Shown here: positions 18,068 to 22,975 of the stretch, one piece after another
How the letters are laid out: the number at the start of each line of letters is the position of its first letter
Position numbering within the stretch: the first letter of the stretch is position 1
Assembly (NCBI GenBank): GCA_028874995.1
Contig: JAPPGM010000107.1
Span: 1-64,000 of the forward strand
DNA: 64,000 bases
DNA from: Gemmatimonadota bacterium
GTDB lineage: Bacteria > Gemmatimonadota > Gemmatimonadetes > Longimicrobiales > Gaopeijiaceae
Direction of reading: 5' to 3'
The notes under the pieces: generated by a model
The model's input: the letters and a program-made list of their open reading frames with translations, nothing else
Database searches by the model: none
What the model was told of the DNA's origin: nothing
Position numbers and translations under genes: made by a program

Positions 18068-18391
18068 CTACCCGGCGATCTCCTGGAGGTGCTGGGCGAT
18101 GTAGCTGTTCATCGACATCCGCTGTCCCCTGGCGCCGGCAGCCAATCTGCGGTGCACGGAAGGGTCGACCCTGACCAGAATCCGGCCGGAATAGGGCTTG
18201 CTGGGTTCTCGGCCCGTTTCCTGACAGAAATCGAGATAGTCGTCCACGGCGTGCTGCATGGACTCTTTCAACTCGGCCACGGACCGGCCTTCGAAGTTGA
18301 TTCCGTCTCGTGTGTCCACGACGTGACCCGCGAAGAACTCGTACTCGTCGTCGTACTCGAAGACGCCGGTGTATCCTTTGTACTCGATCAT
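18068..18391 (-). CDS. hicB: HicB-like antitoxin (no HicA beside it)
   Basis: 107 aa from ATG 18391, preceded by AGGAG at a 9-base spacing. The N-terminal half has the HicB fold pattern: a partly degraded RNase H-like strand set (YTGVFEYDDEYEFFAGHVVD), then FEGRSVAELKESMQHAVDDYL. The C-terminal half is a ribbon-helix-helix (GRILVRVDPSVHRRLA...SMNSYIAQHLQ). HicB proteins bind HicA mRNA-cleaving toxins and repress their own operon. I find no HicA-sized frame on either side: a divergent defence operon starts at 18464 and a convergent lipoprotein ends at 18065. It may therefore act as a stand-alone regulator, possibly of the divergent operon. Confidence 0.75.
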   Translation of the reverse strand: MIEYKGYTGVFEYDDEYEFFAGHVVDTRDGINFEGRSVAELKESMQHAVDDYLDFCQETGREPSKPYSGRILVRVDPSVHRRLAAGARGQRMSMNSYIAQHLQEIAG

Positions 18392-18452
18392 GGTGTGACA
18401 CTCCTGTTGGAGACTGTTGATCAGATCGTGAGCGCATGGGAGGAGGGCTCGG

Positions 18453-18463: not shown

Positions 18464-19645
18464 ATGCCGAACTCCAACCACAACCCCGGAATCGAGTCGA
18501 TCGGAGTCCCGAACACGGAGTTGGCAAATCGCATTCGTTCCAGGATCTTCCGCTCGCTGAAGAAGCAGGGATTCGAGCTACGTGAGGGTCGGCTAGCTCC
18601 ACCGGATATTCGCGACAAGAGTCAGTTGAGGAGGCTTCACCAGGAAGCGGTCATACACAATCGCGCCCGAAGCCGGGCAGGTCTGGAGCGTCATGAAGAA
18701 CGGCTGCTCTCGCGAGTGGCCTCCGGTCGGGAAGTGGTACCGGCAGACGTGAAGCCGGTATTGGTGGAAGTTGAGCCGCGATCGAATGAAGAGCTTCTCT
18801 TCAGGTACGCTCGTCTCCACTGGAGCATACCAGTCTCCGCAGGTTATGGTCGCCGTCTGAGGTTTGTCGTCTACGACGAGGCGAACGGCAAGCTCATCGG
18901 GATCATTGGGATGGGCGATCCGGTCTTCGGACTTGGACCTCGTGACAGGTGGATAGGGTGGGATGTGGCCGCCAGGAAGAATCGGCTGAAGTGCGTCATG
19001 GACCTGTTCGTCCTCGGTGCGGTGCCGCCCTATTCCCAGTTGCTCTGCGGGAAGCTCATGGCCCTGCTTGCAACCAGCACGGAGGTCCAGGAAGCGTTTC
19101 GGAGTAAATACGGAGGACGGAAGGCGTACATCAGCGGCCGGACCTTCGACGGACGCCTTGCTCTCCTGACCACCACGTCGGCTCTTGGCAGGTCTTCCCT
19201 GTATAACCGGCTTCGATATCGGGGCCGAACGGTATTCGAGAGCGTCGGGTTCACCAGCGGATCCGGCGACTTTCATTTCAGCAACGGGTTTTATGGTGAC
19301 CTTCGAGAGTTGGCGGTGCAACACTGCGAAGCAACCGCCAAGCACCCATCCTGGGGTGGAGGTTTTCGGAACCGGCGCGAACTCGTGCGGAAGACTCTGC
19401 CGCTTCTCGGGCTGTCCACAAGGCTGCAGTATCATGGTGTCCAGCGCGAGGTCTTTGCGGTGCCGCTGGCCGAGAACGCTCGGGCATTTCTGCGGGGCGA
19501 GGAATCCGAATTGGAATACTACGGTTGGAGGGCAGACGACCTCTTCGCCTGGTTCCGGAAGCGGTGGTTGCTGCCACGTGCGGACAGGGATCAGCGGTAC
19601 CGGGAGTTCGAGCGGGAATCGTACCGGTTGTGGGGGACTCGGTGA
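18464..19645 (+). CDS. druA-like: DUF4338 / Druantia DruA-like protein
   Basis: 393 aa. The central block has the DUF4338 signature: RFVVYDEANGKLIGIIGMGD, then a PVFGLGPRD-type segment and a WIGWD motif, VMDLFVLGAVPPYSQLLCGK and LMALLATSTEV. DUF4338 is the family of DruA of the Druantia anti-phage system, where its biochemical role is not established. The N-terminus (about 1-75) is charged and helical. It opens an operon: its stop overlaps the next gene's GTG (GTGA at 19642-19645). No DruB, DruC, DruD or DruE is present, so this is a DruA homologue in a different setting. Confidence 0.8.
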   Translation: MPNSNHNPGIESIGVPNTELANRIRSRIFRSLKKQGFELREGRLAPPDIRDKSQLRRLHQEAVIHNRARSRAGLERHEERLLSRVASGREVVPADVKPVLVEVEPRSNEELLFRYARLHWSIPVSAGYGRRLRFVVYDEANGKLIGIIGMGDPVFGLGPRDRWIGWDVAARKNRLKCVMDLFVLGAVPPYSQLLCGKLMALLATSTEVQEAFRSKYGGRKAYISGRTFDGRLALLTTTSALGRSSLYNRLRYRGRTVFESVGFTSGSGDFHFSNGFYGDLRELAVQHCEATAKHPSWGGGFRNRRELVRKTLPLLGLSTRLQYHGVQREVFAVPLAENARAFLRGEESELEYYGWRADDLFAWFRKRWLLPRADRDQRYREFERESYRLWGTR

Positions 19646-20814
19646 CTGCAGGCCCGGGCAACCAGGCACCGTTCACGGATCTTCCCGCTGCTCTCGTAGA
19701 GGAAGTGCTCCGCGAGACCACGACTGTGGCCGAACGCCTGTTGACATCGTTCCAGGAGGTTCGGCAGGAACGCGAGAGCCTCAGGAAGCAATTGGTCGAC
19801 GCCGGCCTGGTCATCACCGACTCTTCCCTCGGATACCCACCCTTGCCGACCACAAGCGCCGCTGACGGGTCGTACGCCATCGAACGCCTGTTGACCACGG
19901 ACCTTGTGGCGGCCACGGCTGTGGCTGTGGAAGGGCTTACGCCACCCTCCGAGGAACGCCATTGGGAGCAGCCTCATCACCGGACCTTCGTGGCCGCGGA
20001 GCCGCATGGAGAAGACACTGCCACGGTACTTCGGGCGGTCATGCTTGGTGAAGAGCTACGACTCGTTACGGCGGCACCACACGATCTCGTAATGCTGGAC
20101 GGCACCTTCACCCTGCCGATCATCTACTTCAACCAGGCCTTCAGCAAGGCCGGTCAGTCCCACCACCTGCACTGCTCGCAGAGGCTCCTTGAGGACGGTG
20201 TGATTTATCTGAAAGCGTATCTCACCATCCTCCGTGCAGAACGTTCCGACAAGCACTTCGTGGCGTTGCCGAAGTACTCCACTCGGCGCGAGATAGGTCG
20301 GAAGCTGGGGTGGCCGAGGCCGTATGACGATCGCGGAATGCTCACGATGCTGCTCAATCCCGGGGAGCTGACGCAGCCGTTGGGGTTCGAGCATCCGCAG
20401 GACAGCCAGGGAAAGCCCACCTGGCACCTGAACGTGCCGGGATTTCCGGACGAAGAAAAACGGGTGGCACGTGAGCTTGCGGACGACATCGTGTCGGCAC
20501 TTGGACCTCTTCGGGTCTTCTACTACAAACCGCAGCAGTGGCTGCCGGCGATGCGCATCGAGGTTTCCGCGAGCGTCGCTTCCAATTCTCATCGGTTGGC
20601 GGTCGTGGTGCAGGGCATCAAGCACCAGACGGCCACGGCGTCAATGCTGGAACCCTACCCGATCTATCTGGCGGATCGGACGGCCAAGGCGCTGGCCCGC
20701 GCGCTACCCGCCTTTCGCCAGGTGACGACCCAGCGGATTTCGGAACGGTATGGCGGCGACATCGGCGAGGTCTTCTTCGCGATGCACGGCTATCGCAGCG
20801 AATCAGGAAGATAG
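19642..20814 (+). CDS. nurA-like: NurA-domain DNA end-processing nuclease
   Basis: 390 aa. GTG 19642 was chosen because it overlaps the preceding stop in a GTGA and the frame upstream lies inside the previous gene. NurA nucleases have an RNase H-like fold with metal-binding aspartates in an early DGS motif and a later LDG motif. Here these are Asp75 (TSAADGSYAIERLL) and Asp153 (LVMLDGTFTLPI). The N-terminal 60 residues are predicted coiled coil. NurA proteins work with HerA hexamers to resect DNA ends, and a HerA gene follows immediately, abutting at 20814/20815. I infer a nuclease fed by that translocase. Confidence 0.75.
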   Translation: MTAGPGNQAPFTDLPAALVEEVLRETTTVAERLLTSFQEVRQERESLRKQLVDAGLVITDSSLGYPPLPTTSAADGSYAIERLLTTDLVAATAVAVEGLTPPSEERHWEQPHHRTFVAAEPHGEDTATVLRAVMLGEELRLVTAAPHDLVMLDGTFTLPIIYFNQAFSKAGQSHHLHCSQRLLEDGVIYLKAYLTILRAERSDKHFVALPKYSTRREIGRKLGWPRPYDDRGMLTMLLNPGELTQPLGFEHPQDSQGKPTWHLNVPGFPDEEKRVARELADDIVSALGPLRVFYYKPQQWLPAMRIEVSASVASNSHRLAVVVQGIKHQTATASMLEPYPIYLADRTAKALARALPAFRQVTTQRISERYGGDIGEVFFAMHGYRSESGR

Positions 20815-22602
20815 ATGACAGACGATAAGACGGAACTTCAGAGGCTCTTCGAGGAAACCGAGCGCCTCGGGGTCATCGGTTCGCCGTCTTCCACTGCCGA
20901 ACTCGCCCTGGACGTGTTGGGCTCGGCAGTGGACCGGAAACTTCTCGGCGAACTGGCCCTCTTCCATTTCATGCAGGATTCGGCCCCCCACTACGCGCTC
21001 GGCCAGATCACCGAGATCCAGCTGAAGAATGTGTGGCACGAAGACCCCACGATGCGCAGCCTGATCCGCCAGCGGGGCCGAGTCGATGCGGTGAGCGAAC
21101 GGCAGGATACCCACCTCGGCAAGATGGTCGTGAGTGCGGTCTTCCAGGAAGGTGGCTCGGCGAGATACGAGCCGAGTATACTCGGAACGGTACCGTCCAC
21201 CGGCACGCCCATTCACATAGCGACCGACGACGTGCTCAACGAGCTGCTGGATCCGTACCGGGATCAGATCTTCTATCTGGGACATGTGTATGGATCACGA
21301 CCGAAGCTCCCGCTCTGGTTCAAGCACTTCGGCAGGGGACCGGATGGCGCAGGGGAAGCCTATCATCTGGGCATCTTCGGGAAGACCGGTTCCGGGAAAT
21401 CGGTGCTCGCGAAGAAGATCCTGATCGCTTACGCGCGGTATCGGCAGATGGCGCTTCTGGTGATTGACCCGCAGGGTGAGTTTGCGCGGGACATGAGAGC
21501 GGGCGCACCCGATGAGGGGTTTCCGTTGCCGCTGGGAGACGTGGTGCGGGGGTTGGGGAAGGAGATTGCGGTCTTGACCGTACGCAAGCTCGTGCTGGAC
21601 CGTTGGGATCTGTTCCAGCAGATCCTCTTCGAGTCGCGATTCTTCGAGCGTCTGACGATTCCCAAAGGTGAGAACCGGGAATTGGCGTGCGGGATTCTGG
21701 CCGATCGACTCCAAAGAACCCAGGTGAAGCTCAAGTTACTGCATGAGCGTGGCTCGTTCGATGCGGCGTGGTCGCTTCTTCAGGAAGAGCGCGTCCAGCG
21801 CGTGTTCTACCGCACTCCGGCATCGCGGGGGCGATTCAACGAGGCTCTACGAGATGCCGATCCCGACTACTTCTACGAACAGCATTGGGCTCCGGTAGCC
21901 CAACTCTTCAGGGAACGGCAGGGTGCCAGGAGCATCGATCGCGCGCTCAACTGGCTGCTTCAGACTGGGACCGCAAGCAGGCCTGTTCTCGTCGTGGACC
22001 TGTCGAAGGAACAGGCCGAGGGTCTCTTCTGGAACGAAAAGATCCAGTCTCTTGTGATCAAGCGGCTGCTTGACGGTCTCTCAAGGACGGCGGAGCGATT
22101 CTACAAGGAGCAGCAGAGTCTCAACGCCCTGGTGGTTATCGATGAAGCACATCGGTTGGCGCCACGCGATCTGCCGAAGGACGACGACGCGGCTCGCCGG
22201 GTGCGAACGAGGCTGGTCGATGCCGCTCGGACCACGCGGAAATACGGGCTCGGGTGGATGTTCATCAGCCAGACGCTGTCGAGCCTTCACATGGAGATCC
22301 TCCAGCAGCTCCGAATCTCCTTCTTCGGTTTCGGTCTGGGTCTCGGACAGGAATTCCAGGCGCTACGACAGCTCGTGGGATCGTCCGGGACCGCGCTCGA
22401 TCTGTATCAGCTATTCCGGGATCCGCATTCCGCTTTCGACGCGAAGAGCCGACAGTACTCATTCATGACGATCGGTCCCGTGAGTCCGCTTTCGTTTTCC
22501 GGAAGTCCGCTCTTCCTCAACGCCTTCAACACGGTAGAGGCCTTTCTGGAAGCCAACGGCCTCGACAAGGCTCTGGACGGGACTCAGCGGGACCTGTTGT
22601 GA
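20815..22602 (+). CDS. herA-like: HerA-type hexameric DNA translocase ATPase
   Basis: 595 aa. The N-terminal beta-barrel (HAS-barrel-like, about 1-160) is followed by a FtsK/HerA P-loop: GIFGKTGSGKS with Lys195, Walker B NALVVIDEAHR with Asp443 and Glu444, and a sensor region VDAARTTRKYGLGWMFISQT. HerA forms hexameric rings that translocate duplex DNA and bind NurA. Start ATG directly abuts the nurA-like stop (TAGATG), so synthesis should be coupled. As the last gene of the DruA-NurA-HerA operon it likely supplies motor activity to the complex. Confidence 0.85.
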   Translation: MTDDKTELQRLFEETERLGVIGSPSSTAELALDVLGSAVDRKLLGELALFHFMQDSAPHYALGQITEIQLKNVWHEDPTMRSLIRQRGRVDAVSERQDTHLGKMVVSAVFQEGGSARYEPSILGTVPSTGTPIHIATDDVLNELLDPYRDQIFYLGHVYGSRPKLPLWFKHFGRGPDGAGEAYHLGIFGKTGSGKSVLAKKILIAYARYRQMALLVIDPQGEFARDMRAGAPDEGFPLPLGDVVRGLGKEIAVLTVRKLVLDRWDLFQQILFESRFFERLTIPKGENRELACGILADRLQRTQVKLKLLHERGSFDAAWSLLQEERVQRVFYRTPASRGRFNEALRDADPDYFYEQHWAPVAQLFRERQGARSIDRALNWLLQTGTASRPVLVVDLSKEQAEGLFWNEKIQSLVIKRLLDGLSRTAERFYKEQQSLNALVVIDEAHRLAPRDLPKDDDAARRVRTRLVDAARTTRKYGLGWMFISQTLSSLHMEILQQLRISFFGFGLGLGQEFQALRQLVGSSGTALDLYQLFRDPHSAFDAKSRQYSFMTIGPVSPLSFSGSPLFLNAFNTVEAFLEANGLDKALDGTQRDLL

Positions 22603-22975
22603 CGGATGGGCCCGGATCCCAGGTGGGACTTGGCCACCTAGAATGTCAACTGTGGTTTCCATAGTGGAAACTAGAATATACATTGCCCCGGCCTTGAGCC
22701 GCAGAGCCATCGTCCCCACTCACCGTGTGACCTGCAACACCGAAGCCGACCGCGCGACCCGCTGGAGTTCATTCGTCCGGCGTTGCCAATGTGCGCCGGT
22801 GGCACAAAGATCGATGTCCCGGCCGCGGGTATCGCCCGCTACGACGGCGGCCGGACACCATGTTGCTGATGGGTAGGAGCTAGCTGATGCGGAAGGATCT
22901 CGAGGGAGCGAGGTGGCTGGACCGTGAGCGGGGCCGTCCAGTGGGAGTGGACGAGGACGAAGGAGGGAGCGGTTC
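22603..22975. other. 373-bp intergenic region with orphan operator-like sites
   Basis: No gene seen. It holds a short hairpin (AGGTGG at 22621, CCACCT at 22634) just after the HerA stop, the palindrome at 22655-22671, and AT-rich TAGAATATACATT. The remaining 290 bases are unremarkable until the AGGAGGGA ribosome site of mtnA at 22961. Confidence 0.5.
22655..22671. promoter_or_regulatory. perfect 7-bp inverted repeat resembling an HTH operator
   Basis: GTTTCCA-TAG-TGGAAAC followed at once by CTAGAATATACATT, which contains -10-like hexamers. This form (TTTCCA...TGGAAA) is typical of operators of XRE-type antitoxins. No gene starts within 300 bp, so it may be left from a lost toxin-antitoxin module. 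Confidence 0.45.

Follow-up and report, generated by a model that had tools for sequence, protein, structure and literature searches.

The role of the HerA–NurA complex is debated, with repair and antiviral functions both under discussion. In T. kodakarensis, HerA–NurA starts at DNA ends and digests both strands, and the authors of that work prefer an antiviral function (PMC12977600). Pairings of HerA with Sir2 or with DUF4297 are anti-phage systems, as cited in the same paper (PMC12977600). Mom enzymes acylate the N6 position of adenine, and Mom together with an endonuclease has been proposed to act as a modification–restriction system in jumbo phages (PMC7824862). DruA is a component of type I Druantia (DruA-B-C-D-E), which has the helicase DruE as its hallmark. 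TdpC–TdpAB is a phosphorothioation-based defence (PDB 8wet/8wfd). Here we describe a bacterial operon that joins DruA to NurA and HerA and that appears to be a so far undescribed cassette for defence against phages or plasmids. No paper naming the three proteins together was found among the 5.39 million searched (without subscription literature). An earlier note on this DNA likewise knew of no characterisation of the trio.

The window, by which we mean the whole stretch of 64,000 nucleotides analysed, contains three consecutive genes arranged head to tail on the plus strand (18464-22602):

18464..19645, plus strand: DruA / DUF4338 protein, 393 aa (Pfam PF14236, 6.8e-109; PADLOC DruA1, 8.9e-109)
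19642..20814, plus strand: NurA nuclease, 390 aa, GTG start (Pfam PF09376, 5.8e-5; fold match to solved NurA)
20815..22602, plus strand: HerA-type translocase ATPase, 595 aa (DUF87, 3e-10; PADLOC HerA, 3e-14)

The DruA stop and the NurA start overlap in GTGA, and the NurA stop codon TAG abuts the HerA ATG (TAGATG). The NurA reading frame runs farther upstream, and the GTG start was chosen because it agrees with the homologues. Coordinates, domains and junctions were as the earlier note had read them from the letters, and its suggestion that the three products are made in fixed proportion is plausible given the gene overlaps. HerA is the last gene of the operon, and the immediate neighbours of the trio are HicB and MtnA; mre11-rad50 is absent from the operon. 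The HicB-family antitoxin gene (18068-18394, minus strand) diverges from the trio, and no HicA was seen adjoining it. An inverted repeat, GTTTCCA-TAG-TGGAAAC (22655-22671), is located ∼50 nt 3′ of the HerA stop and is possibly a terminator or operator. At this locus PADLOC called DruA and HerA only, and none of its models matched NurA.

By sequence the NurA assignment was marginal (PF09376, 23.1 bits, where the cut-off is 21). A structure predicted from 58 homologues (AF2, pLDDT 93.9) had as its top Foldseek matches in the PDB the NurA proteins of T. kodakarensis (HerA–NurA with dsDNA, 4e-12), P. furiosus and S. solfataricus, with E-values up to 1e-8; endonuclease V and the TdpAB nuclease came next after the solved NurA structures. 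Nine charged residues were invariant in all 58 sequences, among them D75, E138, D153, K211 and D345. In HerA both the Walker A motif (GKTGSGKS, residues 189-196) and the Walker B motif (VIDEAH, with DEAH) are intact, and its profile matched PDB chains of HerA, a defence-system HerA and TdpA.

Scanning 84,980 species genomes with a NurA profile returned 160 relatives, of which the best 80 were retrieved. This sample is ranked by similarity to the window NurA, and the fraction of loci with DruA may fall among remoter relatives. A DruA of the same type was located next to NurA or HerA in 68 of the 80 loci: 64 have the order DruA-NurA-HerA, two are cut by the contig end and two read NurA-HerA-DruA. 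The gap between DruA and NurA had a median of −4 nt and was at most 40 nt in 63 of 66 cases. With the same order recurring in 64 of 80 loci and a median overlap of 4 nt, the arrangement is far beyond chance. In two Chloroflexi loci the gene before NurA encodes a different, shorter DUF4338 protein:

L049, 8875-9819: divergent short DUF4338 protein directly upstream of NurA-HerA (PF14236 ∼4e-32; trio-profile score only 20 bits)
L052, 8848-9864: divergent short DUF4338 protein directly upstream of NurA-HerA (PF14236 ∼4e-32; trio-profile score only 20 bits)

That the slot is filled here by another DUF4338 type indicates that the domain is kept, rather than one gene hitch-hiking. Two further loci are cut off at the NurA start, leaving their context unreadable, and DruA is missing from eight (six loci of archaea, one on a deltaproteobacterial contig and the additional copy that Pyrinomonas carries). 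Where context could be read, a DUF4338 protein was present in 70 of 72 bacterial and in none of six archaeal loci. The trio is thus a recurring unit, as the earlier note had supposed, with DUF4338 beside NurA-HerA in 70 of the 78 informative loci among the best 80 of 160 relatives.

By record titles, the bacterial relatives within this sample of the best 80 of 160 span at least 15 phyla. The hosts include several isolates (Pyrinomonas K22, Thermanaerothrix daxensis, Caldanaerobacter subterraneus and Thermogemmatispora tikiterensis), which argues against a binning artefact. Across 54 complete trios the trees of the three proteins were correlated in their pairwise distances (Mantel r of 0.70, 0.50 and 0.64), and 0 of 2,000 permutations reached the observed r. 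No conserved fourth gene was fixed across the 80 loci examined.

Several loci departed from the common arrangement. In L078 an extra gene of 361 aa and unknown family (1436-2521) separates NurA from HerA, and DruA has shifted to the last position of the operon. L009 (9977-11155) and L086 (9950-11135) have NurA broken into two frames, through a frameshift or an assembly error, and in L012 a separate HerA-like fragment follows HerA. On the Rhizobium leguminosarum plasmid pRlX5 (L004, 6857-13087) NurA-HerA occurs without DruA and is flanked in one run by an unknown 387-aa protein and a GHKL-ATPase protein; this is possibly another HerA–NurA cassette. A neighbouring gene in L083 was considered as a replacement for DruA and rejected, being only metallo-hydrolase-like and no DNA modifier.

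DruE was sought in all fetched flanks, many of which lie on short contigs where a distant DruE could be missed. It adjoined a single trio, upstream of DruA with a gap of 18 nt:

L028, 934-11883: operon-like five-gene run DruE-DruA-NurA-HerA-GmrSD

In a second trio (L048) DruE was ∼4 kb away, and L088, a DruA-less archaeal NurA-HerA pair, has an adjoining DruE. There was none in the neighbourhood of the window locus. DruE was rejected as an obligatory partner of the trio, since it is adjacent to L028 alone among the trios. We also examined five full-length DruA proteins from outside trios, encoded at plasmid loci of P. putida, Meiothermus and Nitrosococcus and in two genomes of the window's phylum. 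All five loci had DruE within a few kb and lacked NurA and HerA, and their DruA proteins formed a clade of their own apart from trio DruA (support 0.996). Together, the DruE-linked loci without NurA-HerA and the separate clade point to partner exchange. One DruA family is thus coupled to two alternative DNA machines, DruE and NurA-HerA. In the tree the DruA of L028 falls among the trio proteins, and DruE at this locus therefore looks like a late addition.

These data bear on whether the trio is a degenerate or atypical Druantia subtype, with DruE elsewhere in the genome or lost. We regard this as very improbable. The DruA family is common to type I Druantia, and L028 and L048 place DruE near two trios, but the flanks fetched for the other trios, many of them on short contigs, contained no DruE, the L028 helicase appears to have arrived late, and the window genome holds a single DruA. 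Because the defining DruE is missing, the trio is not Druantia; its DruA belongs to a lineage that has another motor–nuclease as partner. This agrees with the separation from Druantia proposed in the earlier note, DruE being adjacent to one trio and ∼4 kb from another. The DruA of type I Druantia belongs to the same PADLOC and Pfam family, and the Druantia-type proteins of P. putida pKF715A, Nitrosococcus and Meiothermus are 36-41% identical to the window DruA. The hallmark DruE (a YprA-family helicase of ∼1800 aa) and DruB-D are, however, missing from the trio, which has NurA-HerA instead.

Across 395 genomes of the window's phylum DUF4338 was present in 23 and the window-type NurA in one, and at the other 28 DUF4338 loci of the phylum neither NurA nor HerA was present in the fetched flanks, which reach ∼1.5 kb to either side. 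GC3 was 0.70-0.74 in the trio and 0.89-0.90 in the S9 peptidase and mtnA genes that flank it. In two genomes of the same genus hicB is followed directly by mtnA (∼70 nt in L093, ∼250 nt in L102), whereas in the window ∼4.6 kb containing the trio lie between them; relative to these genomes the insertion site is the hicB-mtnA interval. The DruA closest to that of the window comes from a record titled Gemmatimonadetes (L030), followed by Acidobacteria, Binatia, Gammaproteobacteria and Chloroflexi. The patchy distribution, the low GC3 and the empty hicB-mtnA sites in relatives indicate that the trio was horizontally gained.

Such a history sits poorly with a role in DNA repair, in which HerA-NurA would resect ends for recombination with DruA as an accessory repair factor. 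The archaeal and Deinococcus HerA–NurA enzymes have been studied as end-resection enzymes (PMC9960219, PMC4351679), and many of the relatives among the best 80 of 160 are from thermophiles. Against this, the nuclease is confined to one of 395 genomes of the phylum, low GC3 and empty sites show a recent gain, and T. kodakarensis HerA–NurA leaves no 3′ overhangs (PMC12977600). The window genome also encodes RecF and two large AddAB-like PD-(D/E)XK frames in tandem, so that NurA-HerA is not its sole end-processing system. We consider a repair function unlikely.

Sporadic distribution would also fit a cassette that processes the DNA of a mobile element itself, with no part in host defence. One copy (L003) is on an IMG/VR contig, the only one recovered in a scan with NurA and HerA, and a transposase is located beside the second, DruA-less NurA-HerA copy of Pyrinomonas. 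On the other hand, no consistent integrase, transposase or terminal repeat accompanied the trio in the fetched loci, there is no fixed fourth gene, and HerA had no match among 50,697 phage records. This explanation, too, is highly unlikely. Some neighbours are defence genes, with type III RM-like genes beside L017 and DruE and GmrSD in L028, and UvrD-PD-(D/E)XK genes adjoin L010/L011. In raw counts, for which no enrichment is claimed, PADLOC gave UvrD/GajB-like, HerA-like and RT-associated helicase matches at a few loci each. Many other neighbours are housekeeping genes, and the neighbourhoods are mixed.

DruA consists of an N-terminal helical region, a GNAT-like core (approximately residues 98-250) and a C-terminal region, and its alignment of 61 sequences has 35 invariant columns. 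Foldseek with the AF2 model (pLDDT 90.7) matched almost only GNAT acyltransferases in the PDB; these matches were weak (best E 4.9e-3, probability 0.99, TM 0.52 by target). In agreement with the predicted fold, DUF4338 has been classed as a GNAT domain in published work (PMC10853773). A sequence search of the PDB with the DruA profile gave coiled-coil noise only, no helicase match was found, and in Pfam DruA matched PF14236 only and not Mom (PF25680).

Direct comparison of the trio DruA and Mom profiles (hhalign) gave 1.3% and was set aside as unsupported. The short DUF4338 family scored 96.5-96.6% against Mom (E 5e-10 to 7.5e-10) and 96.8-97.7% against trio DruA (E 2.5e-10 to 2e-12), with E-values that are pairwise and a bridging family of only 3-10 sequences. 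The controls, namely Mom reversed, 60 Mom alignments with shuffled columns, NurA and HerA, remained at or below 0.9% throughout. Short DUF4338 proteins and Mom have in common the signature G-x-x-Y-x-A-x-N-[WF]-x-x-x-G, preceded by an HY pair. Sequence comparison thus supports DruA as a remote homologue of phage Mu Mom by way of the short DUF4338 intermediate. The same chemistry is not supported for trio DruA and may have been lost: some short DUF4338 proteins (ETFVD) retain the invariant Asp of Mom (SFAD), but it is replaced by Ser/Ala in trio DruA (TTTSA) and is Gln in L049. Trio DruA has invariant motifs of its own, PPY..L.GK and T.SA...SS.Y.R (TTTSA-GRSS-YNR). For short DUF4338 proteins, including L128 and L131, the remote Mom homology is not evident from Pfam or PADLOC assignments. 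The proposal in the earlier note that DruA recognises or opens target DNA found no specific support; with a GNAT-like, Mom-related core, DruA is at least as likely to mark DNA. Of the note's interpretation, the real, recurring non-Druantia unit stands.

DUF4338 homologues also occur in T4-like cyanophages and pelagiphages (L089, L112, L113, L114), beside clamp-loader, DNA polymerase or UvsX genes, and the phage homologues scored 99.3% against DruA in hhalign. A Synechococcus phage protein has likewise been assigned to DruA (Phold paper, PMC12774648). These phage genes are candidate DNA-modification or anti-defence genes. The label 'methylcarbamoylase mom' carried by a cyanophage protein was rejected as unsupported by Pfam, which says DruA; the remote link stands.

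Our leading reading, held tentatively, is that DruA-NurA-HerA forms a compact, mobile cassette that degrades foreign DNA, with DruA providing discrimination, most likely by marking host DNA. From sequence and structure prediction we infer the following steps. The HerA ring would pump dsDNA into NurA, which would cut both strands processively, as in characterised HerA–NurA complexes. DruA would distinguish self from non-self, most likely through an acyl-type mark that bars HerA–NurA from host DNA, making the trio a minimal modification–restriction system analogous to TdpC with TdpAB. DruA would then be an exchangeable discrimination module on different motors, either HerA–NurA or, in type I Druantia, the YprA helicase DruE. 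A defence role is reasonable, if indirect, given the mobility of the trio, the identity of its parts, the scattered defence neighbours and the HerA–nuclease precedents. Against the reading as a whole, the Mom link hangs on a small intermediate family (direct comparison 1.3%), the invariant Asp of Mom is missing in trio DruA, the neighbourhoods are mixed with many housekeeping genes, and the archaeal NurA-HerA relatives manage without DruA.

Defence without modification is quite possible as well. DruA would in that case have no catalytic role and would act as a DNA-binding or licensing subunit; much as the earlier note proposed, it would detect some feature of the invading DNA (a replication intermediate, an end or a foreign modification) and load HerA–NurA there. 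The coupled translation and shared inheritance of the genes point to a physical complex, DruA also partners the DNA helicase DruE, and the Asp of Mom is not kept. As HerA–NurA depends on a DNA end, an unmarked circular chromosome would probably be partly safe. The GNAT-like fold and Mom homology would be unusual for a pure recognition subunit, however, and the invariant TTTSA-GRSS-YNR and PPY-L-GK motifs resemble an active site. We place marking of DNA by DruA slightly ahead of target recognition, on account of the GNAT-like fold and the Mom homology; the two are nearly equal, since Mom's Asp is lost in trio DruA.

The specific proposal that a Mom-related DruA puts an acyl-type mark on host DNA, with HerA–NurA destroying unmarked DNA, is possible but doubtful. 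If true, it would also account for DruA in type I Druantia, as an enzyme that marks DNA, and DruA would be a common discrimination module that has passed between DruE and HerA–NurA. We take the trio for a form of HerA-motor nuclease defence, possibly modification–restriction, with a real chance of being a new class if DruA marks DNA. The Mom link makes DruA function a chemical question, that of a DruA-dependent nucleoside, and HerA–NurA gains a bacterial context with a defence protein.

Among the known systems, the HerA–NurA complexes of archaea and Deinococcus resemble the trio in the NurA fold, the invariant acidic residues, the HerA ATPase and the adjacency of the genes. The trio differs in that it adds DruA in bacteria, has no mre11-rad50 beside it and is sporadic rather than core, and its NurA shares only ∼24-29% identity with the plasmid homologues of Rhizobium and haloarchaea. 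Sir2–HerA and HerA–DUF4297 defence likewise combine a HerA motor with a partner enzyme, whereas the partner in the trio is an RNase H-fold NurA nuclease, joined by DruA. Mom-type modification, in phage Mu and in the jumbo-phage Mom-REase pairs (PMC7824862), is linked by a profile and signature similarity that belongs to the short DUF4338 proteins; trio DruA differs in having neither a Pfam Mom match nor the invariant Asp. The BRC systems (HerA/FtsK + GNAT + TGT + PglZ; PMC12839542) also contain a HerA/FtsK motor and a GNAT predicted to mark self DNA, but are seven-component and BREX-related, and NurA is not named among their parts (PMC12839542). TdpC–TdpAB differs from the trio in its third gene, DruA replacing TdpC, and no phosphorothioation enzyme was seen. 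In both systems a HerA-like ATPase is combined with a NurA-like nuclease, the window NurA matching 8wfd_G (E 7.5e-5) and the window HerA profile matching TdpA (E 1.4e-7), and the trio would follow the same logic if DruA marks DNA.
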